A stretch of DNA of 64,000 nt from Sediminibacter sp. Hel_I_10. Lineage in GTDB: Bacteria; Bacteroidota; Bacteroidia; Flavobacteriales; Flavobacteriaceae. Every line of letters starts with the position of its first letter. The first letter of the stretch is position 1. The DNA lies in contig NZ_JHZX01000001.1 of NCBI RefSeq assembly GCF_000688335.1, positions 2,232,001 to 2,296,000 on the forward strand. The letters run 5' to 3'. The notes under the pieces are model-generated. The model was not told the DNA's origin, searched no databases, and saw nothing but the letters and a program-made list of their open reading frames with translations. The position numbers were made by a program, and so were the translations under genes. Shown here in pieces: positions 9,845 through 57,468 of this stretch.

Positions 9845-10711
9845 ATGGATACTAAAGAACTTCTAAAAAAAGTACGAAAAATAGAGATCAAGACCCGTCG
9901 GTTGTCTGATCATATTTTTGGAGGCGAATACCATTCGACCTTTAAGGGGCGAGGTATGACCTTTTCTGAAGTGAGAGCGTATCAATTTGGAGATGACGTG
10001 CGTAGTATTGATTGGAACGTTACCGCCAGATACAATGAGCCCTTTGTTAAAGTGTTTGAAGAAGAGCGAGAGCTCACCATGATGTTAGTGGTGGATATTT
10101 CTGGGTCAAAATTGTTTGGAACCCAAGATCAGTTTAAGGACGAAATCATCACAGAGATAGCCGCAACATTAGCCTTTTCTGCAACCCAAAACAATGATAA
10201 AATTGGTTTGATTCTCTTTTCAGATGAAATTGAACTATACATTCCTCCAAAAAAGGGACGCTCACATGTATTAAGGCTTATTCGAGAGCTCATTGAATTT
10301 GAGCCGAAAAGTAAAAAAACAGATGTTGCAATGGCGCTTAAATTTCTCTCAAACGTGATGAAGAAGAAGGCCATTGTTTTTGTGCTTTCAGATTTTATAG
10401 CAGAAGACTATAAGCAAACCCTTAAAATAGCAGCAAAACGCCATGATATTACGGGTATTCGGGTTTACGACAGACATGAGGAGCACATTCCTAACCTAGG
10501 AATGGTGCAAATGGAAGACGAAGAAACAGGAGAGCTGGTGCTCATTAATACCGCTTCTAAAAAAGTAAGAGAAGATTATAGTAATTACTATAAAGAAAAT
10601 GTCAACTATTATAAAGAATCCTTTACCAAATCTGGTGCAGGCGTTATAGACTGTCGTGTTGACGAAAGTTATGTCAAAAAACTGTTAGGCTATTTTAAGC
10701 GTAGAAATTAA
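9845..10711 (+). CDS. DUF58 (VWA-like) protein of the Bat operon
   Basis: This 288-residue protein shows the DUF58 signature DVRSIDWNVTARYNEPFVKVF. A VWA-like fold follows with the metal-site-like strand MLVVDISGSKLF. DUF58 proteins sit with MoxR ATPases and are presumed clients or adaptors of them. No signal peptide or membrane helix is visible, so it is probably cytosolic or peripheral. It lies between the MoxR gene and a BatD-like membrane protein gene, as in other flavobacterial Bat operons. Confidence 0.9.
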   Translation: MDTKELLKKVRKIEIKTRRLSDHIFGGEYHSTFKGRGMTFSEVRAYQFGDDVRSIDWNVTARYNEPFVKVFEEERELTMMLVVDISGSKLFGTQDQFKDEIITEIAATLAFSATQNNDKIGLILFSDEIELYIPPKKGRSHVLRLIRELIEFEPKSKKTDVAMALKFLSNVMKKKAIVFVLSDFIAEDYKQTLKIAAKRHDITGIRVYDRHEEHIPNLGMVQMEDEETGELVLINTASKKVREDYSNYYKENVNYYKESFTKSGAGVIDCRVDESYVKKLLGYFKRRN

Positions 10712-10776
10712 GACGTGAGATATACGGTGTTGAACAGATTGTGAAGTTAGATCTTCAAAAGAGTGAACTACAATAT

Positions 10777-12444
10777 ATGAACAGAGATTTTAGATTTTTG
10801 AATGTGATATCGGTCAATTTTGGTTCTAAAGCCTTGATCTTGGCCTGTGGTGCCTTGTTCTTTTTTCTATCAAATTCAGTGCAAGCTCAGGTGACCTCGT
10901 CTATTGATTCTACAAAAATCAAAATTGGAGAGCAAATTACGTATCAAATTCAAGTAGAGGCAGACACCACAGAATTGGTTCTTTTTCCTGAAGGACAAAC
11001 CTTCATGCCTCTAGAAATGATTGAGTCTTATGAAACAGATACCACAAAAAACAACGCGACATATAAACTGATCAAGCGTTATGGTTTAACGCAATTTGAT
11101 TCTGGTGCCTACACCATTCCGCAGCAAAAAATACTTATTGGAGACAACGCATTTTTTACAGACTCGCTAAGGGTAGAGGTCAATACTGTTACTGTAGATA
11201 CTACTAAGCAGCAGTTGTATGACATCAAACCCATGATTGAGGTAGAGAAATACCCAAGTCAATGGTGGAAATACCTTCTTATTGCCCTCTTGGCCATTAC
11301 CCTTATTGGTGTTGTGCTGTGGTGGTTTATCTGGCGTAAAAAACCACTTTCCGAAGAAGAACAAATGGCCTTGTTGCCACCCTATGATCGCGCCAAACTG
11401 GCATTGCAAAAATTAGATGAAAGCGATTATTTGCAACGGTCAGAATTAAAAGGATATTATTCTGAACTGACCTTTATCATCAGAAAATATTTGGATGAAA
11501 AAGTCTACGATCGCGCATTAGAAAGTACAACCGATGAGTTGGTAGCCCGATTAAGATTACTTAAAGATGCCAATAAAATTGAGTTGAGTTACGACGATAT
11601 TAAAAACATAGAGGGCATTTTGAAACGTGCCGATTTGGTGAAATTTGCAAAATCTGCTCCAGATGTTGAGCTTGCCAAATTAGATAGAAATACCATTGAT
11701 GTAGAAATTGATCAAGTAAAACAGGCTTTACCAGAACCTACTGAAGAGGAAAAATTATTAGATCAAAAATATAAGGAAGAATACGAGCGCAAAGCAAAAC
11801 GTCGTAAGATCATCTTCACCGTTGCCGCAAGTATTGCCATTATATTGGCAACCTTTGCTGGATTTGGTATGAAATACGGTTTCAAATACGTGATAGATAC
11901 CATAACAGGAGATGAAACCAAGGCCTTATTAGAAGGCACGTGGGTAGATAGTGCCTATGGTGTGCCGCCCGTTATGATTTCTACACCAGAGGTTCTTGAG
12001 CGTATTGAAGTGAAAGCGATTGACAGTACAGGAAATACTAAAGTCACTGCCTTTAATTATGGCGATTTAGATAGCGCTTTTAATATTGCCATAGGAACCA
12101 CCAGATATAATTTACAGAAGGATCAAGAGATTGATGTTAGTGCAGAATTAGAGCAAACCATAAAGACATTTGAGAATAACGGCGCTAAAAATCTAATCGT
12201 AAAACGCGATAAGTTTGAAACCCCTAATGCTGCAGAAGGGATAAAGGTCTCAGGTACTGGTGAGTTTCCGGGAGAAAAAGAAGGGGAGTTTAGAACAGGA
12301 GAATATGTCATCCTCATTTTTGTTGCCGATGATAAATCGGTATTGCAAAAAATTATATTGGTTTGGGATAATGAGAATGACTATGCCAATGAAATTATGG
12401 AGCGCGTGTTAAATTCCGTAGAACTTAAAAAAGTAGAAAATTAA
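10777..12444 (+). CDS. Bat-operon membrane protein, BatD-like N-terminus
   Basis: Starting at the ATG at 10777, the product has about 555 residues; a GTG at 10741 is an in-frame alternative. A signal peptide (LILACGALFFFLSNSVQAQ) is followed by a beta-rich periplasmic part (IGEQITYQIQVEADTTEL) like the Ig-type modules of BatD. A membrane helix follows at about residues 163-186 (LLIALLAITLIGVVLWWFIW), then a charged cytoplasmic region and a second helix near 345-370. The C-terminal ~180 residues, after the second helix, have no family I recognise. The stop codon overlaps the BatA start (TAATG), implying coupled translation. Confidence 0.75.
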   Translation: MNRDFRFLNVISVNFGSKALILACGALFFFLSNSVQAQVTSSIDSTKIKIGEQITYQIQVEADTTELVLFPEGQTFMPLEMIESYETDTTKNNATYKLIKRYGLTQFDSGAYTIPQQKILIGDNAFFTDSLRVEVNTVTVDTTKQQLYDIKPMIEVEKYPSQWWKYLLIALLAITLIGVVLWWFIWRKKPLSEEEQMALLPPYDRAKLALQKLDESDYLQRSELKGYYSELTFIIRKYLDEKVYDRALESTTDELVARLRLLKDANKIELSYDDIKNIEGILKRADLVKFAKSAPDVELAKLDRNTIDVEIDQVKQALPEPTEEEKLLDQKYKEEYERKAKRRKIIFTVAASIAIILATFAGFGMKYGFKYVIDTITGDETKALLEGTWVDSAYGVPPVMISTPEVLERIEVKAIDSTGNTKVTAFNYGDLDSAFNIAIGTTRYNLQKDQEIDVSAELEQTIKTFENNGAKNLIVKRDKFETPNAAEGIKVSGTGEFPGEKEGEFRTGEYVILIFVADDKSVLQKIILVWDNENDYANEIMERVLNSVELKKVEN

Positions 12445-48641: not shown

Positions 48642-49553
48642 TCAACCATTAATAGCCTCAACCGTTTCCACGCGTCCTTTCATCATTTCGCGTAACATGT
48701 TTTCAATACCACTTTTTAACGTAAAAGTAGAGGAGGGGCATCCACTGCAAGCGCCCTGCAATAATACACTTACGGTTTTGGTTTCGGCATCGTAAGATTG
48801 AAACTCAATATTGCCACCATCACTAGCTACAGCCGGTTTGACATATTCTTCTAAAATATTAACGATTTCTTTAGAGGTGTCATCCAACGCTTCATAGGTT
48901 TTATCTAACGCAGACGTTGTTTTTAGTTTAGCCTGTTCAGCATTTTCATTGATAATGGTTTTAGAATCTTCGATGTAAGCTCTTATAAACTCGCGTAATT
49001 CTAATGTGATGTCGCTCCATTCTGCCATATCATATTTGGTAATAGACACATAGTTTTCATCTAGAAAAACGCCTTTCACAAATGGGAAATGAAACAAGGC
49101 TTTAGCCATTGGCGAGTAACTGGTGTCATCAATAGACGTAAACTCATGAGAAGAAGTGACCAGTTTTTTATTGGCTACAAACTTCAAAACAGAGGGGTTC
49201 GGGGTGCTTTCTGCATACACGGTTATAGGAACTTTTTTAGAAGTATTTTCAGCAGAAGTAGTTTCAACAACTGCACTGCCGGTGTTGAGATACGTCTCTA
49301 TTTGCTCAGCCACCTCTTGTTGCACATCTGACCATTCAACAATATCATAGCGCTCAACAGCAATAAAGTTGCCCGAGATATAAATTTTCTTTACAAAGGG
49401 AAGATAAAAGAGCTGCTGTGCCAAAGGAGACGGCTTCGCTTCATCAATGTTATTGAATTCAAAGCTCTCATTTCGTGTTAAAAAATGGGAAGATTCAAAT
49501 TTCAAAATCGCGTTATTATTAGTTGGTTTGGGAGTGATGACATGTTTGACCAT
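48642..49553 (-). CDS. NifU-like Fe-S scaffold/carrier protein with two Nfu_N domains
   Basis: From the ATG at 49553 the protein has 303 residues. Two similar N-terminal Nfu_N-type domains occur at about residues 5-95 and 110-200, sharing the patterns LKFES/LKFVA, SPLAQQLFYLPFVKKIYI / SPMAKALFHFPFVKGVFL and YDIVEWSD / YDMAEWSD. The C-terminal NifU domain has the cluster-binding CxxC in GACSGCPSS (Cys269, Cys272). It probably carries Fe-S clusters to client enzymes in the cytosol. A frame open to 49598 is ruled less likely by a promoter at 49571-49598. Confidence 0.9.
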   Translation of the reverse strand: MVKHVITPKPTNNNAILKFESSHFLTRNESFEFNNIDEAKPSPLAQQLFYLPFVKKIYISGNFIAVERYDIVEWSDVQQEVAEQIETYLNTGSAVVETTSAENTSKKVPITVYAESTPNPSVLKFVANKKLVTSSHEFTSIDDTSYSPMAKALFHFPFVKGVFLDENYVSITKYDMAEWSDITLELREFIRAYIEDSKTIINENAEQAKLKTTSALDKTYEALDDTSKEIVNILEEYVKPAVASDGGNIEFQSYDAETKTVSVLLQGACSGCPSSTFTLKSGIENMLREMMKGRVETVEAING

Positions 49554-49875
49554 AGGATGGTAGTTTTTTGCAAAAGTAACAAACAGATAGCAGAGCAACT
49601 TCGCTTTTTAAAGAAGCTAACATACTATTAACAGTTTTCATGAGTTGTATTAGAACTAATATATTGGGTTTATATAGAGTTTAATAGGTGCTTTAAGTGT
49701 TAAAGCGCTATTTTTACTAATGATAAAACGCATTCGTTGCTGAATTTTTATTAATTTTCACGTTTTGATAAAAAAAACGAAATACGTTTCAATCTTTAAC
49801 GCATAACCCTCCCCGAATCTATGCTAATTAAGGTGTATTTCGGAATGGTTTAATATCTAAAATGCTTTTAGGCCT
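49554..49875. other. divergent intergenic region upstream of the giant surface protein
   Basis: These 322 AT-rich bases lie between the minus-strand nfu-like gene and the plus-strand giant gene. They hold the nfu-like promoter and a weak plus-strand -7-like match (TACGTTTC, 49783-49790). No gene or repeat is seen. Confidence 0.5.
49571..49598 (-). promoter_or_regulatory. Bacteroidetes-type promoter for the nfu-like gene
   Basis: On the minus strand TTG (49598-49596) is followed after 17 bases by TACTTTTG (49578-49571). Transcription would start near 49564, so translation must begin at the ATG at 49553. Confidence 0.5.
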
Positions 49876-52800
49876 ATGAAATATTTCTACTATTTAGTAT
49901 TCATTTTGGTTGCATACCAATCGCAAGCCCAAGATGTCATTATGGAAAACGGCACATTTACAAGATGTGCCCCAGATAGATTCTACGATTCTGGAGGCCC
50001 TAATGGTCCTTATAGCAGCAATGAAAATATTGTAACCACAATTTGTGCTCCAAATGCAGAGGAGTTTATTATTCTTCAATTTACGGCCTTTAGTACGCAA
50101 CTTAATGTAGACGAGATGACCATTTATGATGGGGATGACACGTCTGCGCCAGTGATTGGGGTTTACAATGGAGCCAATACACCGGGAACGGTTATCGCAT
50201 CAGATACAAATACAAGTGGTTGTATAACCATTCAATTCATTACAAATGACTCAGGAACCACGACAGGTTTTGCGGCAGATATCATTTGTGCTGTACCTTG
50301 TCAAGAACTAATACCTTTTGTTGAGAGTACTGTGCCAGAGGCTAATGCTTCTGGAATTGTACAAATCACCTCTGGAGAGGAAGTGCAGTTTGTTGGAAAT
50401 GCCAACTTTGAAAATGATGGTACAGATGCCATATATGAATGGTCTTTTGGTGATGGTGATGATGCTACAGGAAATGAGGTGTCTCATGTGTTTAATGGAG
50501 AAGGGGAATACACAGTAACCCTTACCGTAACTGATAATAATCCATTGGGTTGTGAAGCGTCTACTACCATCTCAGTTTTTGTAGTAGGAGCAAATATTGT
50601 CGTTGACACTAATGCATTTACCATTGAGCAATTGGTGACTGATGTCTTGATCAATAGTGCCTGTGCTGAAATTAGTAATATCACATCTACAACTGGTAGT
50701 ACCGTGAATGGTATCGGATATTTTGCAAATGATGGCAGTCAGTTTCCATTTCTTGATGGTATAATTTTGAGCACAGGGAGTGCTTTAAATGCAGGAGGAC
50801 CAAATGATGGGAATTCCAGTGACGGTGGTGATGGTTGGCCAGGTGATCCATATTTAGATGTGATTGCTGATGCTAATACCAATAACGCATCTTCAATTCA
50901 ATTTGATTTTGTGCCCTTAGCAGATAATATTAGTTTTGAGTTTTTAATGGCCTCTGAAGAGTACGATCAGGGAACTTTCGAATGTGAATATTCTGATGCA
51001 TTTGCCTTTTTGTTAACGGATTCTATGGGTAATACCACTAACTTAGCAGTCTTACCAGGAACAACAACTCCTATTTTAGTAACTAACATTCATCCAGATA
51101 ATGGGGCCGAATGTGGTGGAATTAATGAAGAATATTTTGGAGATTATGTAGGTGCTAATCAACCGCCTATGATATATGACGGGCGAACAGCCGTTTTTAC
51201 GGCGCAATCATCTGTTGTTCCAGGAGAAACCTATAATATAAAGTTGGTTATTGCAGACGCAAGAGATACTGCTTTTGATTCGGGAGTTTTCTTAAAGGCA
51301 GGAAGTTTTAATCTCGGTGGCGATATTGGTGAAGATATTACAATTGCGGCAGGAACAGCAACATGTGGTGGTACGCAACAAATATTGGATACTCAAGTCT
51401 CTGCAGCGGTACACACGTGGTACCTTGATGGTGAAGTTATTGAAGGAGAGACAAGTTCTACATTAGTAGCTGAGGAATCTGGTCTATACTCCGTGGATGT
51501 ATTTTTATCTGTAGATTGTCAGTTTAGTGATGAAGTGCTGGTAGAATTTAAACCTAGTCCAGAAGCTAATACGCCGCAAGACCTTTCAGTTTGTATTAAT
51601 GCAACTGCAGGCGAGTTTGATCTTACTGAAAATGATGCAGTCATACTTGGGGATCAAAACCCAGAGGATTTTATCATTTCATATCACCTCACAGAACAAG
51701 ATGCTATCGATAATGTGGCCCCATTAACCAGTCCATATACAAACATAGAAAACCCTCAAATTATTTATGCCAGAATTGCAGATATTACGCAAGAGTGCTA
51801 TACAACAACAACTTTTGAAATTGGGTTTAATGGTCTATCCATCAACTCAAATTTAACACCTTTAGAAGTGTGTGATGATAATCAAGATGGCATTGCGGTA
51901 TTCAATCTAAATGAGGCAGATGCTGAGGTGGTAGACGGTCTAGATGCTGAAACAGTTTCGTTGTCTTATCATGTATCTCAAGACGATGCAGATGATAATG
52001 TTTCTGAGATCACGGCGCCATATACTAATGTAGATCCAGATCTTCAAACTATTTTTGTGAGAGTTACAACTATTGGTGATGAGGCATGTTACAATACGAC
52101 TGAATTAGATTTAGTGGTTAATCCTAAGCCAATTGCAGTTGCGCCCACTTCGATTGAAGTTTGTGATGATGATGATAATGGAATCGCAACGTTTGACCTA
52201 TCCTTAAGAACTGCGGAAATTTTAGGTGCTCAGACCAATATGACCGTTACATACCACATATCGCAAGCAGATGCTAATGAGGGTTTAAATCCGTTACCGA
52301 CATCATACAATAATGTTGATGAAGACCTGCAGATTGTTTATGCGAGAGTAGAAGATGACATTACGGAGTGTTATGATACAGTTGAATTGACATTAATCGT
52401 TAATCCACGACCTGCTTTTGGTGCATTTGCCGATATTGTATTATGTGATGAAAATGGAGCTGCTAATGAGGAGCCCTTCAATTTAAGTGCCACTAGTAAT
52501 GAAGATGTTGATGGTCAGCCTACGTTAATTGTATCTTATCATGATTCTATGGAAGATGCAGAGTTTGGAGATGACCAGCTTACTAGCCCTTATACTAATA
52601 CGAGTAATCCACAAACGATTTATGTAAAAGTCACTAATATTAATACGGGTTGCAGTAGTGTTGGAACGTTCAATATTATTGTTAATACATTACCCGATCT
52701 GACTGTCCCTACCCCCTTGGAGGTCTGTGACGACGGCACCCCTGACGGGATCACTCTGATCGACCTATCACTTAAGAACACGGAGATCACCGGTGGCAAT

Positions 52801-55800
52801 CCCGGCTATACGGTGAGCTACCATTTCACTGCCGCCGATGCGCAGAACGGCGTTGACGCTTTGGATATCCCTTACGAGAACGAGTCCAACGGCCAGACGG
52901 TCTACGTTCGGGTTGAGGATTCCGTTACGGGCTGTTTTGACACGACTGAGCTTGTGCTCACCGTGGAGCAGGCCCCTGTGGCCAATGCCCCATCACCACT
53001 TGAGTTCTGTGACCCGGACAGCGATGGCTTCGGGACCTTTGACCTTACGATGAGCGATGGCGAGATCACGGGCGGCGACGCCGGTCTTGAGGTGACCTAC
53101 CACGAGACCTCTGTCGATGCGCAGAACGGTGTGAACGCGGTGACGAGCCCCTACAGCAACATCGTGATCAACACCCAGACCCTATATGTACGGGTTGAGA
53201 GCGGTACGATCGCCACGGACTGTGCGAGCTTTACGCAGCTGCAGTTGGTGGTGAGCCCAACGCCACAGCTCGGCGCCACGCCACCGACCCCACTGGGTGT
53301 CTGTGACGATGCCTCCGGTGACGGGATCGCGCAGTTCGACCTTACGGTGAAAGAGGAGGAGATCCTACAGAACCTTGACGACCAGACGCTCTACACGGTG
53401 AGCTATTATTTGAGCGCCACCGATGCGAACGTTCCCCAGAACGCCATACTGAACCCCTTTAACTATACCAATATAGAGCCCTTTTCCCAGACCTTGGTGG
53501 TCCGGGTAGAGGACAACGCCACGGGCTGTTACAAGCTCACGACCCTAGAGCTTGTGGTCAACGGCCTTCCCGAGCTTACCCAGCCCGCTCCGTTGGAGCT
53601 CTGCGACTACGTTTCTTCCGGGGACGAGGTCGAGGGCTTCACCCTTGAGGACGCGACGGACACGATACTTGGTGGCCAGACCGGGATCAGCCTTAGCTTC
53701 CATGCGACGCAGGCGGGCGCCGATACCGGCACCGATGTGATCACCAGTCCCTACCAGAACACAGAGAACCCCCAGACGGTCTATGTACTGGCAACGGACG
53801 ATGTTACGGGCTGTACCAGCACGGTGACGCTCCTGCTCAGGGTGAACCCGATCCCATCGCCGGTAGCGCCGATGGACATCGAGGTGTGCGACGGGGACAA
53901 CGACGGCTTTGCGAGCTTCGACCTTGAACAGCGCACGGACGCGATCATCGGCGGAGAGGCCGATGTGGAGGTGACCTACCACGAGACCCAGGGCGACGCC
54001 GATAGCGGCGAGAACCCACTGACCAGCCCCTACGAGAACATCGTGATGGACGAGCAGGTGGTCTACGTCAGGGCAGAGAACACGGTGACGGGCTGTTACA
54101 GCGCCTCACGTACGCTCACCCTTCGCGTGCTCGGCTCGCCCGAGGTACCGTTGGAGATAGAGGACTACGTGATCTGTGATACCGATGCCAATGGCTTTGC
54201 ACAGTTCGACCTTACGACCAAGAACGCCGAGATCCTTGGCGGACAGTCCGCCGCGGACTATATACTGACCTACCACGTGAGCGCTGCGGCGGCCCAGACG
54301 GGCAGTGCCCCTATAGCGAACGTGCTGGCCTATACCAATACCTCGAACCCCCAGACGATCTACGTAAGGCTTGTTGGCAGTGCCAATGGCTGCGCCGATA
54401 CGGGGCAGTTCGAGATCCGTGTGGAGCTCCCACCGGTCGCGGTACTGCCCGCACCGCTACAGCTCTGCGACGACGATATTGCCGATGAGATCACGGTGTT
54501 CGACCTTACGGTGCGCGACACGCAGATCACCGGCGGTGAGGGCAGCTGGAGCGTGTCCTACTATGAGACCCTTGCCCAGGCAAATGGCCAGACAGGTGCG
54601 ATAGCGGACCCTACGGCCTATACGAACACGACCGTTGGCGGCGCCGCGGCCAATCCGCAGACGCTCTACGCAGTGGTTACGGACACCGATACGGGCTGTA
54701 CGGACATTACCACGCTGACCATCCGCGTGCTGCCGAACCCGACGCCGACCACGGACCTTCCCGAGCTTGTGCTCTGTGACGATACCGCGCCCGGTGACCT
54801 CCAGGAACCGTTCGATTTGACGCTCAACGAGTCGCTGCTGATCAACGGTGAGGACAACGTGACGGCGAGCTACCACACCACGGCCTTTGATGCCGACCAG
54901 GGCACGAATGCCATAGTGGACCCGACGGCCTATGAGAACACGGCCACGCCACAGGTGATCTACGCCAGGGTGACCAATGACCTTACGGGCTGCTACACGG
55001 TAGTGGAGCAGACCATCTCTGTGGACCCGCTCCCGGCACTGCCAGCAGGCGGAGTTGATGACCTGATCGCCTGTGAGCTTGCGACGGACGGCTTTGCGCC
55101 GTTCTTCCTTAGCGATAGGGACCTTGACGTGCTCGACGGGCAGGACCCTGCGCTGTTCACGGTGAGCTACCATATTGACCAGGCGGACGCCGATAACCTT
55201 GAGGACGGCCTTGTGAGCCCCTATGTGAACGTGACCAACCCACAGCAGATCTTTGTTGCGGTGACCAATAACGATACGGGCTGCTCGATCAGCACGCTGA
55301 GCTTCAACATCGAGGTACAGGAGGGCGCCGCGGCGAACGCCGACATGGCGGATATCCTCTATGAGACCTGTGATGATGAAATGGAGTTTGACGGGGACCC
55401 AGGTAACGACAGCGCACAGTTCGACCTGACGCCGGTCACTGACGTGGCGGACCTTGTCCCGGGCAGTGTGCAGGCAGAGGTGCTCGACGGGCAGGACCCG
55501 GCGAGCTATACGGTGAGCTACTATGCGAGCGAGGCGGATGCCGCGCTCGGTCAGGATCCCCTGCCGTTCCTCTATGAGAACCTTGTGAACCCACAGGTGA
55601 TCTGGGCACGTGTCGACAACGATACAGAGGCGGCCGATGGCACGGACAGCTCGATCTGTTATGCGGTCGCCCCGGTGACCCTGCAGGTGAACCCGATGCC
55701 ATCGTTCGACCTGGAGGACAGCTATGTGCTCTGCGTGGGCACGGACGGCACGGAGGTGATCGGTGCGCCGGTACTGGATACCGGGCTTACGGCACCTGAC

Positions 55801-56451
55801 TACGAATTTGAGTGGACCTTCAACGGCACGGTGATAGCCGGTGCCGATGGGGGCAGCTATATGCCTGGAGCGGAGGGCATCTATGGGGTGAGCGTCACGG
55901 ACGTATCGACCTCATTGGTGACCAGCTGTGTGGGCTATGACCAGGCGGAGGTGATCGAGAGCGGTCCCCCGGCCGTGAGCGCCGAGGTGCTCACCGATGG
56001 CTTTGCCGATCTCCACGTTGTGGAGGTCACGGTGGCCGGTGACGGCAGCTACGAGTACAGCCTTGACGGCGGCCCATGGCAGGACAGTCCCGTGTTCAGT
56101 GACGTGTCCCTTGGGGACCACGAGCTGACGGCCAGGGACAGGAACGGCTGTGGCCTTGCAAGCACCACGGTGACGGTACTGGACTACCCGGCGTTCTTCA
56201 CGCCCAACGGTGACGGTTACAACGACACGTGGAACATTGCGGGGATAAGTGCGCAGGGCAGCGCAAAAATCTTTATATTTGACCGCTTTGGGAAACTGCT
56301 CAAGCAGCTGGACCCTACAGGTGCAGGTTGGGACGGTAGCTACAACGGTAGCGCCATGCCAAACAGCGACTACTGGTTCGTTGTCGAGTACCAGGAACCG
56401 AACACTGGCACAAGCAAAGAATTTAAAGCACATTTTACCTTGAAAAGATAA
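49876..56451 (+). CDS. giant repeat-containing surface/adhesin-like protein with T9SS type B sorting domain
   Basis: This 2,191-residue secreted protein has a signal peptide (YYLVFILVAYQSQAQ). A CUB-like domain follows (about 20-140), then a PKD domain (about 150-240, YEWSFGDGDD), a choice-of-anchor-L-like domain (about 250-490, FEFLMASEEYDQG) and an Ig-like module. Fourteen ~90-residue repeats occupy about 565-1,950, with the core CDD..DG...FDLT...EI.GG.....VSYH.....A..G...L.SPY.N..NPQT.YVRV....TGCY. The end (FFTPNGDGYNDTWNI ... FKAHFTLKR) is the gliding-motility-associated CHU_C / T9SS type B sorting domain. The PorP/SprF gene follows nine bases later. It resembles SprB-type partner substrates, although the repeat sequence is not one I can name. 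Repeats 5-14 and the C-terminus use GC-rich codons. Confidence 0.88.
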   Translation: MKYFYYLVFILVAYQSQAQDVIMENGTFTRCAPDRFYDSGGPNGPYSSNENIVTTICAPNAEEFIILQFTAFSTQLNVDEMTIYDGDDTSAPVIGVYNGANTPGTVIASDTNTSGCITIQFITNDSGTTTGFAADIICAVPCQELIPFVESTVPEANASGIVQITSGEEVQFVGNANFENDGTDAIYEWSFGDGDDATGNEVSHVFNGEGEYTVTLTVTDNNPLGCEASTTISVFVVGANIVVDTNAFTIEQLVTDVLINSACAEISNITSTTGSTVNGIGYFANDGSQFPFLDGIILSTGSALNAGGPNDGNSSDGGDGWPGDPYLDVIADANTNNASSIQFDFVPLADNISFEFLMASEEYDQGTFECEYSDAFAFLLTDSMGNTTNLAVLPGTTTPILVTNIHPDNGAECGGINEEYFGDYVGANQPPMIYDGRTAVFTAQSSVVPGETYNIKLVIADARDTAFDSGVFLKAGSFNLGGDIGEDITIAAGTATCGGTQQILDTQVSAAVHTWYLDGEVIEGETSSTLVAEESGLYSVDVFLSVDCQFSDEVLVEFKPSPEANTPQDLSVCINATAGEFDLTENDAVILGDQNPEDFIISYHLTEQDAIDNVAPLTSPYTNIENPQIIYARIADITQECYTTTTFEIGFNGLSINSNLTPLEVCDDNQDGIAVFNLNEADAEVVDGLDAETVSLSYHVSQDDADDNVSEITAPYTNVDPDLQTIFVRVTTIGDEACYNTTELDLVVNPKPIAVAPTSIEVCDDDDNGIATFDLSLRTAEILGAQTNMTVTYHISQADANEGLNPLPTSYNNVDEDLQIVYARVEDDITECYDTVELTLIVNPRPAFGAFADIVLCDENGAANEEPFNLSATSNEDVDGQPTLIVSYHDSMEDAEFGDDQLTSPYTNTSNPQTIYVKVTNINTGCSSVGTFNIIVNTLPDLTVPTPLEVCDDGTPDGITLIDLSLKNTEITGGNPGYTVSYHFTAADAQNGVDALDIPYENESNGQTVYVRVEDSVTGCFDTTELVLTVEQAPVANAPSPLEFCDPDSDGFGTFDLTMSDGEITGGDAGLEVTYHETSVDAQNGVNAVTSPYSNIVINTQTLYVRVESGTIATDCASFTQLQLVVSPTPQLGATPPTPLGVCDDASGDGIAQFDLTVKEEEILQNLDDQTLYTVSYYLSATDANVPQNAILNPFNYTNIEPFSQTLVVRVEDNATGCYKLTTLELVVNGLPELTQPAPLELCDYVSSGDEVEGFTLEDATDTILGGQTGISLSFHATQAGADTGTDVITSPYQNTENPQTVYVLATDDVTGCTSTVTLLLRVNPIPSPVAPMDIEVCDGDNDGFASFDLEQRTDAIIGGEADVEVTYHETQGDADSGENPLTSPYENIVMDEQVVYVRAENTVTGCYSASRTLTLRVLGSPEVPLEIEDYVICDTDANGFAQFDLTTKNAEILGGQSAADYILTYHVSAAAAQTGSAPIANVLAYTNTSNPQTIYVRLVGSANGCADTGQFEIRVELPPVAVLPAPLQLCDDDIADEITVFDLTVRDTQITGGEGSWSVSYYETLAQANGQTGAIADPTAYTNTTVGGAAANPQTLYAVVTDTDTGCTDITTLTIRVLPNPTPTTDLPELVLCDDTAPGDLQEPFDLTLNESLLINGEDNVTASYHTTAFDADQGTNAIVDPTAYENTATPQVIYARVTNDLTGCYTVVEQTISVDPLPALPAGGVDDLIACELATDGFAPFFLSDRDLDVLDGQDPALFTVSYHIDQADADNLEDGLVSPYVNVTNPQQIFVAVTNNDTGCSISTLSFNIEVQEGAAANADMADILYETCDDEMEFDGDPGNDSAQFDLTPVTDVADLVPGSVQAEVLDGQDPASYTVSYYASEADAALGQDPLPFLYENLVNPQVIWARVDNDTEAADGTDSSICYAVAPVTLQVNPMPSFDLEDSYVLCVGTDGTEVIGAPVLDTGLTAPDYEFEWTFNGTVIAGADGGSYMPGAEGIYGVSVTDVSTSLVTSCVGYDQAEVIESGPPAVSAEVLTDGFADLHVVEVTVAGDGSYEYSLDGGPWQDSPVFSDVSLGDHELTARDRNGCGLASTTVTVLDYPAFFTPNGDGYNDTWNIAGISAQGSAKIFIFDRFGKLLKQLDPTGAGWDGSYNGSAMPNSDYWFVVEYQEPNTGTSKEFKAHFTLKR
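51585..55707 (+). repeat. fourteen tandem protein-coding repeats of about 265-340 bases
   Basis: Unit starts, judged by the recurring V/L-C-D motif, lie near 51585, 51865, 52155, 52435, 52717, 52999, 53290, 53590, 53880, 54165, 54455, 54770, 55060 and 55360. Units are diverged in protein sequence but keep YH/YY, SPY.N, NPQ and TGC positions. In the GC-rich units the string ACGGGCTGT or ACGGGCTGC recurs at the TGC position, and TTCGACCTTACG recurs at the FDLT position. Confidence 0.85.
52690..56400 (+). other. GC-rich segment inside an AT-rich gene
   Basis: Counted by hand, 60-base blocks give 30% G+C at 52621-52680 and 45% at 51901-51960, against 63% at 53041-53100 and 60% at 54841-54900. 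Codons change from GAT, GGT, TTA and ACA to GAC, GGC, CTT/CTG and ACG without a break in the repeat motif. The upstream switch coincides with the linker between repeats 4 and 5. AT-rich codons return in the last ~10 codons. Confidence 0.9.
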
Positions 56452-56460
56452 CAAAGAGAC

Positions 56461-57468
56461 ATGAAATTAAAAACGTATTGGTTAATAGCAAGCCTAGCAT
56501 TATTCACACAAATTGGAGTTGCCCAAGAGGGATTACCAATTTATTCTGATTATTTAACAGACAACTATTATTTATTACATCCCTCAATGGCAGGTGTGGC
56601 GAATTGTGCCAAGGTTCGGTTAACAGCAAGAGCCCAATGGTTTGGTCAAGATGAAGCACCAAACTTGCAAACGTTGAGTGTGAATAGTAGAATTGGAGAC
56701 TCGCCTTCAGCAGTTGGAGCGATTGTTTACAATGATAAAAATGGGTACCATTCTCAAACAGGAGCTTATTTGACTTATGCGCATCATTTAATGTTTTCTA
56801 GAAATGAAATTGATTTAAATATGTTATCCTTCGGTTTAAGTGCTGGATTTATTCAATACAAATTGGACGAAACAGAATTTTTAGCAGATGGGTTTGATCC
56901 TATAATTGATGGGATTGAGCAGAGTGCTACAAACTTCAATGTAGACGTTGGGTTTTCTTATCATTTGATCAATTTCTATGCACATGCTACGGTTAAGAAT
57001 CTATTGAACAATGATGGTGTTAATTTTAATGAGCAAGGATTAAGCTATCAAAACTTAAGAACTTATATCTTTTCTGCAGGAAATACCTTTAGTAAATATA
57101 ACAGTGATTATAGCTTTGAGCCTTCTGTGATGTTTATGTATAGAGATGCCACTGAGGAAGCGTCATTTGATGTTAATATGAAAGTTTATAGAGAAATGGA
57201 CTTCGGTAAAATTTGGGGTGGTTTATCTTATAGAAGAAGTTTAGATGGCGCAGAGTTTCAAGATGGCTCTGGTGTGAGCAGCCAAAAATTACAATACTTC
57301 ACACCATTTGTTGGTGTGGATTACAATAACTTCGTATTTGCTTATACGTATTCTTATCAGGCAAATTCAGTAGTATTCAATAATGGTGGGTTCCATCAAA
57401 TTACTTTAGGTTATAACTTTAACTGTAGAAAAGAGAAATTTGAATGTAACTGTCCAGCGATTAACTAA
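56461..57468 (+). CDS. PorP/SprF-family type IX secretion membrane protein
   Basis: This 335-residue protein has a signal peptide (LIASLALFTQIGVAQ) followed by the PorP/SprF start pattern GLPIYSDYLTDNYYLLHPSMAGVANC (abbreviated) and an outer-membrane barrel of about fourteen strands, ending in aromatic-rich strand FHQITLGYNFNC and a short cysteine-containing tail. PorP/SprF proteins are encoded next to large type B T9SS substrates and are needed for their secretion or attachment. The gene begins nine bases after the giant gene, so they form one transcription unit closed by the terminator at 57488-57519. Confidence 0.93.
   Translation: MKLKTYWLIASLALFTQIGVAQEGLPIYSDYLTDNYYLLHPSMAGVANCAKVRLTARAQWFGQDEAPNLQTLSVNSRIGDSPSAVGAIVYNDKNGYHSQTGAYLTYAHHLMFSRNEIDLNMLSFGLSAGFIQYKLDETEFLADGFDPIIDGIEQSATNFNVDVGFSYHLINFYAHATVKNLLNNDGVNFNEQGLSYQNLRTYIFSAGNTFSKYNSDYSFEPSVMFMYRDATEEASFDVNMKVYREMDFGKIWGGLSYRRSLDGAEFQDGSGVSSQKLQYFTPFVGVDYNNFVFAYTYSYQANSVVFNNGGFHQITLGYNFNCRKEKFECNCPAIN

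Follow-up and report, generated by a model that had tools for sequence, protein, structure and literature searches.

In E. coli, the Vsr endonuclease acts together with the Dcm methyltransferase and skews recombination between markers. The Neisseria enzyme V.NgoAXIII is reported to recognize T:G mismatches whatever the sequence context, with MutS lowering and MutL raising its activity (PMC6116569). Linkage to a C5-methyltransferase is not universal among known Vsr genes (PMC12907096, in the available text). Sequence that is held alike by recombination has been described as compositionally distinct in two settings. Primate X-chromosome palindromes, near-identical duplicates homogenized by gene conversion, have a GC content above that of flanking single-copy DNA (PMC8981503, in the portion available), and recombining sequence was found to be GC-richer in the work behind the hypothesis of biased gene conversion in bacteria (Lassalle et al. 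2015, PMC4450053, likewise from part of the text). The main text of the latter makes no mention of paralogs, duplication, or names beginning with Bacteroid- or Flavobacter-.

A giant repeat protein, a type B sorting domain, and an adjoining PorP/SprF gene are the marks of type B T9SS proteins for gliding or adhesion, SprB among them, and the gene described here has all three. It lies in a stretch of 64,000 nucleotides (the window; positions 2232001 to 2296000 of genome G000, which is one contig of 4.106 Mb).

Results

A composition switch inside a giant surface-protein gene

The encoded protein has CUB, PKD, and CHU_C domains in Pfam, choice-of-anchor L and T9SS type B sorting domains in NCBIfam, and tandem repeats (Table 1). 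The original prediction of a GC-rich, codon-shifted segment in this T9SS repeat gene holds: GC3 changes from 0.26 to 0.76 near position 52711 and drops again before the stop codon, falling to 0.20 in the last 10 codons. In 300-nt windows, GC content is 0.37 to 0.43 up to position 52749, 0.49 at 52600-52899, 0.56 to 0.64 to about 56349, and 0.31 to 0.40 in the next gene; within the open reading frame (ORF) it goes from about 0.39 to about 0.62. The best single GC3 change point is codon 945 (0.259 left, 0.759 right), with a statistic of 11.59 versus a maximum of 2.44 in 1,000 codon shuffles. Among the 46 nonoverlapping ORFs of at least 150 amino acids in the window, this one has the highest GC3 (0.543 overall; runner-up, 0.43). 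As had also been proposed, the reading frame and the repeat motif run unbroken across the switch, and the upstream junction falls at a repeat boundary, the segment described below beginning at the start of a repeat unit.

Table 1. Coordinates of the switched gene, its parts and neighbors, and the Vsr gene of the same genome (window positions unless a contig is named)
Feature	Position	Strand	Evidence or remark
Giant T9SS surface-protein gene, copy a, 2191 aa	49876..56451	+	ORF, Pfam, NCBIfam
Unshared AT-rich head, GC3 0.26	49876..52691	+	No near-identical counterpart in copy b; GC3
Shared GC-rich 3' block, GC3 0.76	52692..56451	+	99.2% identity to G000:C1:3378596-3382355
Upstream tract edge	52692..52965	+	19 of 30 copy a/copy b differences (first 274 nt)
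Tract core	52966..56390	+	2 differences in 3425 nt
Downstream tract edge	56391..56451	+	9 differences in last 61 nt
T9SS type B sorting domain (TIGR04131; CHU_C in Pfam)	56182..56448	+	119 bits, cut-off 35
PorP/SprF gene, outside tract, GC3 0.28	56461..57468	+	Pfam; GC3
Nfu-type gene, conserved locus neighbor in many genera	48642..49598	-	Pfam; synteny
Vsr gene of the same genome, 156 aa	G000:C1:1733381-1733851		Outside the window

The GC-rich segment is shared by two distant genes

A second copy of the segment (copy b) lies 1.09 Mb away in the same orientation and aligns with copy a over 3,760 nt without gaps, up to the stop codon. The heads of the two genes differ, that of copy b carrying CUB, PKD, and P-domain, and the C-terminal TIGR04131 domain scores equally in both. 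Twenty-eight of the 30 differences between the copies lie within the two tract edges (Table 1), a clustering at both ends that fits the edges of conversion tracts; the upstream edge is richer in differences in several other genomes too. The observation in the window is not a one-off mosaic, and the segment is the 3' half common to two T9SS adhesin-type genes. An assembly artifact was considered and is disfavored: the 30 differences cluster instead of being scattered, and 17 other genomes carry the pair.

Two further observations concern the surroundings of copy b (sequence L006). At about 10400-11596, upstream of the identity boundary and in repeats absent from copy a, GC3 rises from about 0.3 to 0.63, a ramp that speaks against the mechanism proposed below. 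At L006:601-3300 (G000:C1:3367600-3370299), part of a minus-strand gene of the large secreted type has a GC content of 0.47 to 0.51, versus 0.37 to 0.39 at its 5' end.

The two tails evolve in concert in many genera

The block protein has a match in all 23 genomes of the genus searched and in at least 380 of 397 family genomes, drawn evenly from a larger group, many of them matching only through related repeats. Among the matches listed from these 397 genomes, the closest block outside the genus is 66% identical. Within the search of the genus, blocks of other species reach at most 70% protein identity to the own-genome block. Both copies are readable in 18 genomes (16 on one contig, G303 in 6 contigs, and G122 in about 10), and all 18 have the same arrangement of two genes with different heads and a common 3' block. 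The shared blocks measure 3.1 to 5.4 kb at 94.8 to 100% identity and end no more than 175 nt from the stop codon in 17 genomes and 1,015 nt past it in G275. Nfu and PorP/SprF genes typically flank the first locus, and cysS, folE, an outer-membrane-protein gene, and proS (named by eye) flank the second; neighbors are conserved at both loci in most of the 18, with tandem or otherwise placed copies in a few.

In a tree of the heads, those from the Nfu/PorP side mostly form one group, and those from the cysS/folE side fall mainly together, with some elsewhere. In the block tree, both copies from one genome pair as sisters in every one of the 18, from which it follows almost certainly that the tails evolve in concert by gene conversion. 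Because both proteins carry the same sorting domain, and perhaps use the same PorP/SprF partner, a homogenized tail may be tolerated or useful. A report of concerted evolution of T9SS adhesin tails was not found in the literature covered, a scope that left most subscription papers outside.

In many draft genomes the block forms a lone contig of about 3 to 5 kb, as a collapsed repeat would, so that both genes look truncated there; one such contig has a coverage of 304.

The rise in GC is confined to the shared tracts

Block GC3 exceeds that of the heads of the same genes in 18 of 18 genomes (mean difference, +0.21; P = 7.6 × 10−6) and that of neighboring genes in 17. At fourfold sites (GC4), the block exceeds its neighbors in all 18 (P = 7.6 × 10−6). 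Heads lie below their neighbors in every genome, so that head-based differences are inflated; the baseline used is therefore the neighbors or the other genes of the genome. When relatives were compared for the position of the switch, as the original prediction proposed, no common gradual composition emerged: strongly raised genomes step sharply at or near their own identity boundary, with GC3 going from 0.23 to 0.68 in G000, from 0.15 to 0.60 in G008, and from 0.28 to 0.70 in G275. The step starts 180 to 360 nt inside the tract in G062 and G322 and is faint in weakly raised genomes.

Several features tie the rise to the extent of the tract. In nine genomes the tract reaches 0.3 to 1.4 kb further upstream than in G000, and in every one of them this extension exceeds the unshared part, slightly so in G099 and G322. 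In G275, a 100% identical tract (L135 and L136) takes in a complete second PorP/SprF gene, which has a GC3 of 0.68; 13 PorP/SprF orthologues outside tracts, that of the window included, range from 0.14 to 0.43. Codon positions 1 and 2 track GC3 in blocks (rho = 0.80) and not in heads (rho = 0.16). Two observations weigh on the other side: a lower GC3 marks the opening 300 nt of the tract in 14 of 18 genomes but the final 300 nt in 9 of 18, and the shared noncoding flanks past the stop codon, which are short and come from 6 genomes all lacking a solitary Vsr, show no clear rise.

In many blocks from genomes without Vsr (Vsr−), A and T differ in frequency at fourfold sites. In G089, G314, and G192, for example, fourfold A is 0.53 to 0.68 and T is 0.14 to 0.18, a strand asymmetry that a bias toward GC does not account for.

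The rise depends on duplication

Single-copy or diverged homologues of the block served as controls. Of 23 such rows, 16 (from 14 genomes) were used; G177b and G015 are duplicated and were excluded, as were G051, G157, and G074 (cut at contig ends) and G017a and G017b (a pair 87.5% identical), these last five having a GC3 0.05 to 0.12 above their neighbors. The mean GC4 difference from neighbors is −0.005 in the controls, with 5 of 16 above zero, versus +0.167 in the 18 pairs (P = 5 × 10−5). The diverged pairs of G217 (72 to 82% identical in aligned parts) and G384 (73 to 75%) are on average not raised. Within a single genome, G177, the single-copy homologue has a GC3 of 0.40 (neighbors, 0.43) and the lone contig one of 0.89. 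Two exceptions, G027 and G138, are single-copy yet raised, both without Vsr. Among draft genomes, 18 of the 23 lone or edge block contigs have a baseline for comparison (5 do not), and GC4 exceeds it in 15 of these (P = 0.001), the others being G316, G114, and G019.

A second duplication in the same genome behaves alike. Two adjacent SprB-repeat genes (G000:C1:3103302-3111689 and 3112820-3122488; L147 and L148) have a common 2.4-kb tail at 96.5% identity, with a GC3 of 0.70 versus 0.22 to 0.24 just upstream. Among the CHU_C genes read in G000 (20 of 21 matches), this pair is the only other equally GC-rich stretch. The tail has one match in each of the other 22 genomes of the genus, where the duplication was not seen. 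Single-copy orthologues have a GC3 of 0.13 to 0.26 in 8 of the first 9 read, close to their own upstream part; the ninth, in G022, has 0.52 versus 0.30 upstream, and because its neighbors lie near 0.43 this tail is hardly above baseline. Relative to its own baseline, the duplicated tail is shifted by 1.38 logits and the single-copy tails of seven congeners, three of them with Vsr (Vsr+; G008, G015, and G022), by −0.68 to 0.19. Together, these comparisons show that the rise in GC depends on duplication. That the bias toward GC arises through conversion is very probable.

The CHU_C survey gave two further observations. One gene (L150:694-4626; G000:C1:432693-436625) goes from a GC3 of 0.23 to 0.61 in its last bin and has no near-identical partner among the stretches compared. 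Another (L143:838-2640; G000:C1:2203837-2205639) contains an internal direct repeat of about 84% identity over 1,185 nt, with no GC rise.

The size of the rise is associated with Vsr

Vsr was the first repair family tried, chosen because repair of T:G to C:G in heteroduplex DNA would bias conversion toward GC. A profile search (PF03852) of 35 genomes with the block, for most of which block GC was known beforehand, gave 13 full-length matches and a truncated one in G322. Vsr was absent, as expected, from all seven genomes with a low-GC block, in a search where absence was common (36 of 40).

We expressed the rise as the block shift, that is, logit GC4 of the block minus logit GC4 of the baseline. 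It ranges from −0.88 to 3.20 across 51 genomes of 29 genera, comprising the 18 with both copies read and 33 whose duplication is inferred because the block occupies a lone short contig or a contig end or, in the case of G015, because a second head lies at a contig end. G084 has no baseline and was excluded, the baseline of G114 consists of 611 codons (others have more), and block GC was not measured for G002, G004, G009, G011 to G014, and G021. The median shift is 1.96 in the 16 Vsr+ genomes versus 0.49 in the 35 Vsr− genomes (area under the curve [AUC], 0.995; P = 2 × 10−8). Means per genus give the same picture (10 Vsr+ versus 21 Vsr−; P = 1.5 × 10−5), and restricting the comparison to the 18 read pairs separates the classes completely, with all 5 Vsr+ genomes above the 13 Vsr− genomes (P = 0.0016). 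Independent Vsr+/Vsr− pairs, for which the block tree was used as the genome tree, go in the predicted direction in 9 of 9 cases (P = 0.004). Finally, the shift was forecast for ten unmeasured genomes before their sequences were fetched, and all ten forecasts were correct (Vsr+: G358, 2.18; G383, 1.91; G022, 1.82; Vsr−: G216, of the genus of G383, 0.29; G299, 0.67; G333, 0.60; G097, −0.82; G293, 0.21; G100, 0.10; G010, 0.70). The size of the rise is thus associated with Vsr.

The classes overlap slightly: Vsr− G151 (1.24) and G284 (1.00) exceed Vsr+ G062 (0.98), and G151 also exceeds Vsr+ G178 (1.21). The truncated Vsr match of G322 lies beside a methyltransferase, and this genome was scored Vsr− after inspection; counted as Vsr+, it lowers the AUC to 0.971. 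A regression gives Vsr a coefficient of 1.62 (t = 10) and shows no significant effect of baseline GC4. Presence of a C5-methyltransferase gives an AUC of 0.51 for the block shift. Photolyase is found in 50 of the 51 genomes and is therefore uninformative as a control gene. Vsr− pairs still rise, weakly, in 31 of 35 genomes, and the single-copy block of a Vsr+ genome, G063, is not raised (GC4, 0.341 versus a baseline of 0.436); the strong effect therefore goes with duplication and Vsr together.

Baseline GC4, taken away from the block, is itself higher in Vsr+ genomes (0.36 versus 0.25; P = 0.005). Vsr might act on genome-wide composition, or follow it.

A solitary Vsr

The Vsr protein of G000 belongs to the family by a PF03852 match above the cut-off and aligns with E. 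coli Vsr (1cw0) at E = 1.3 × 10−15. The active-site Asp and His positions are identical, and one zinc-site Cys is replaced by Glu. Twelve of the 16 Vsr proteins were aligned, and the reading frame of the G049 protein is known only from its profile match. In the 13 neighborhoods inspected, which cover all 16 Vsr+ genomes but G022, G358, and G383, no methyltransferase was recognized by eye beside the Vsr gene; the neighbors are ordinary genes, such as ahcY, sdh genes, and an aminotransferase. Seven of the 16 Vsr+ genomes have no C5-methyltransferase (PF00145) match. Vsr+ blocks show no preferred sequence context for the rise: contexts with enough sites all shift by about 1.3 to 2.9 logits, and a shift in every T context tested fits a relaxed enzyme.

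Discussion

We propose the following mechanism, to which we assign a probability of roughly 0.7 as the best explanation of the data. Two adhesin-like genes with different heads and one common 3' tail would undergo homologous recombination that repeatedly copies one tail over the other, and this nonreciprocal gene conversion would produce the concerted evolution. Each event would form heteroduplex DNA, in which a C/T or A/G difference between the copies gives T:G as one of its two possible mismatches. A Vsr-type endonuclease would nick the T strand at T:G, and because repair would then restore C:G, conversion would be biased toward G and C; over many rounds the tract, and the tract alone, would turn GC-rich. 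Without Vsr, a weak bias would persist. The composition at equilibrium reads the same for transitions, which this mechanism predicts, as for transversions. From these sequence comparisons we infer that Vsr acts on the heteroduplexes as a cause rather than a marker, with relaxed sequence specificity, and we consider it probably the main cause of the GC bias.

The most serious competing account accepts the conversion bias and attributes it to general mismatch repair, to mutation linked with recombination, or to some other factor that accompanies Vsr, which would then be a marker. The weaker rise in 31 of 35 Vsr− pairs and the baseline difference between the Vsr classes agree with it, as does the comparison with just two other gene families, one of which, photolyase, is nearly universal and uninformative. 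A loose marker would hardly give an AUC of 0.995 together with agreement in all nine independent pairs and all ten forecasts, however, and C5-methyltransferase presence is uninformative about the shift, so that we regard this account as rather unlikely. Codon selection, or selection acting on the repeat and tail domains for their function, is very improbable as the source of the rise. Many genomes do have similar tail domains, and codon selection can act on highly repeated proteins, but codon positions 1 and 2 of the block rise together with GC3, the PorP/SprF gene is GC-rich only when it lies inside a tract, tails with no near-identical partner are on average not raised, and the SprB-type tail is raised only when duplicated.

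Two origins had been suggested for the segment before this analysis. Recombination with the gene of a GC-richer relative would account for an abrupt change of composition with the frame kept, but no such donor appeared in the family search or the trees: close blocks outside the genus are absent among the matches listed from the 397 genomes, the block takes its place in the tree among congeners, GC-rich and AT-rich alike, and a similar rise is seen in many genera, with both copies alike in each. Horizontal transfer is accordingly a shade less probable even than selection. The other suggestion was GC-biased conversion among tandem repeats. Its first half stands, in that conversion is GC-biased; its second does not, the exchange being between two genes 1.09 Mb apart rather than among tandem units. 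The repeat units, and the short identical strings noted when the sequence was first read, speak for conversion or recent duplication among the units of one gene. In a self-comparison of the block, however, the best unit-to-unit matches reach 67 to 78% over 59 to 169 nt, below the identity of the two collinear, gapless copies (99.2%), and we give this origin next to no weight.

These findings have several implications. An abrupt change of GC content and codon usage inside a gene can arise without horizontal transfer, and such blocks tend to fragment draft assemblies. The 51 genomes of 29 genera amount to a natural experiment, in which the same two loci come with sharply bounded tracts, single-copy homologues as controls, a further, independent duplication, and a candidate gene whose presence predicted the outcome. 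The association with Vsr points to a possible molecular cause of GC-biased conversion in bacterial genomes; no paper joining Vsr with conversion bias was recognized in the literature within our scope, which most subscription papers fell outside. On balance we lean toward the view that a solitary Vsr, a single accessory enzyme, is the molecular cause of strong bacterial GC-biased gene conversion and that its repeated gain and loss switches the composition of recombining sequence (tract GC3 of up to 0.94) and may even shift the genome-wide baseline.

The system resembles, and departs from, those described before. Unlike SprB, the window protein has no SprB-repeat match in Pfam, and a sequence search of the PDB with its shared tail gave no match at E ≤ 1. 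The solitary Vsr is a sequence relative of E. coli Vsr (1cw0), and Vsr repairs T:G to C:G. It differs in that no methyltransferase was recognized beside its gene in 13 neighborhoods, that it occurs in seven genomes with no C5-methyltransferase match, that the G000 protein has Glu in place of a zinc-site Cys, and that it is linked here to gene conversion. Unlike the primate palindromes, as the available text describes them (PMC8981503), the present case is bacterial and ectopic between two genes, with a steeper rise and, as a candidate, a repair enzyme that varies among species. The bacterial hypothesis of Lassalle et al. 2015 (PMC4450053), in the portion at hand, rests on a genome-wide comparison of recombining genes, whereas the loci described here offer defined tracts, single-copy controls, and a candidate enzyme.
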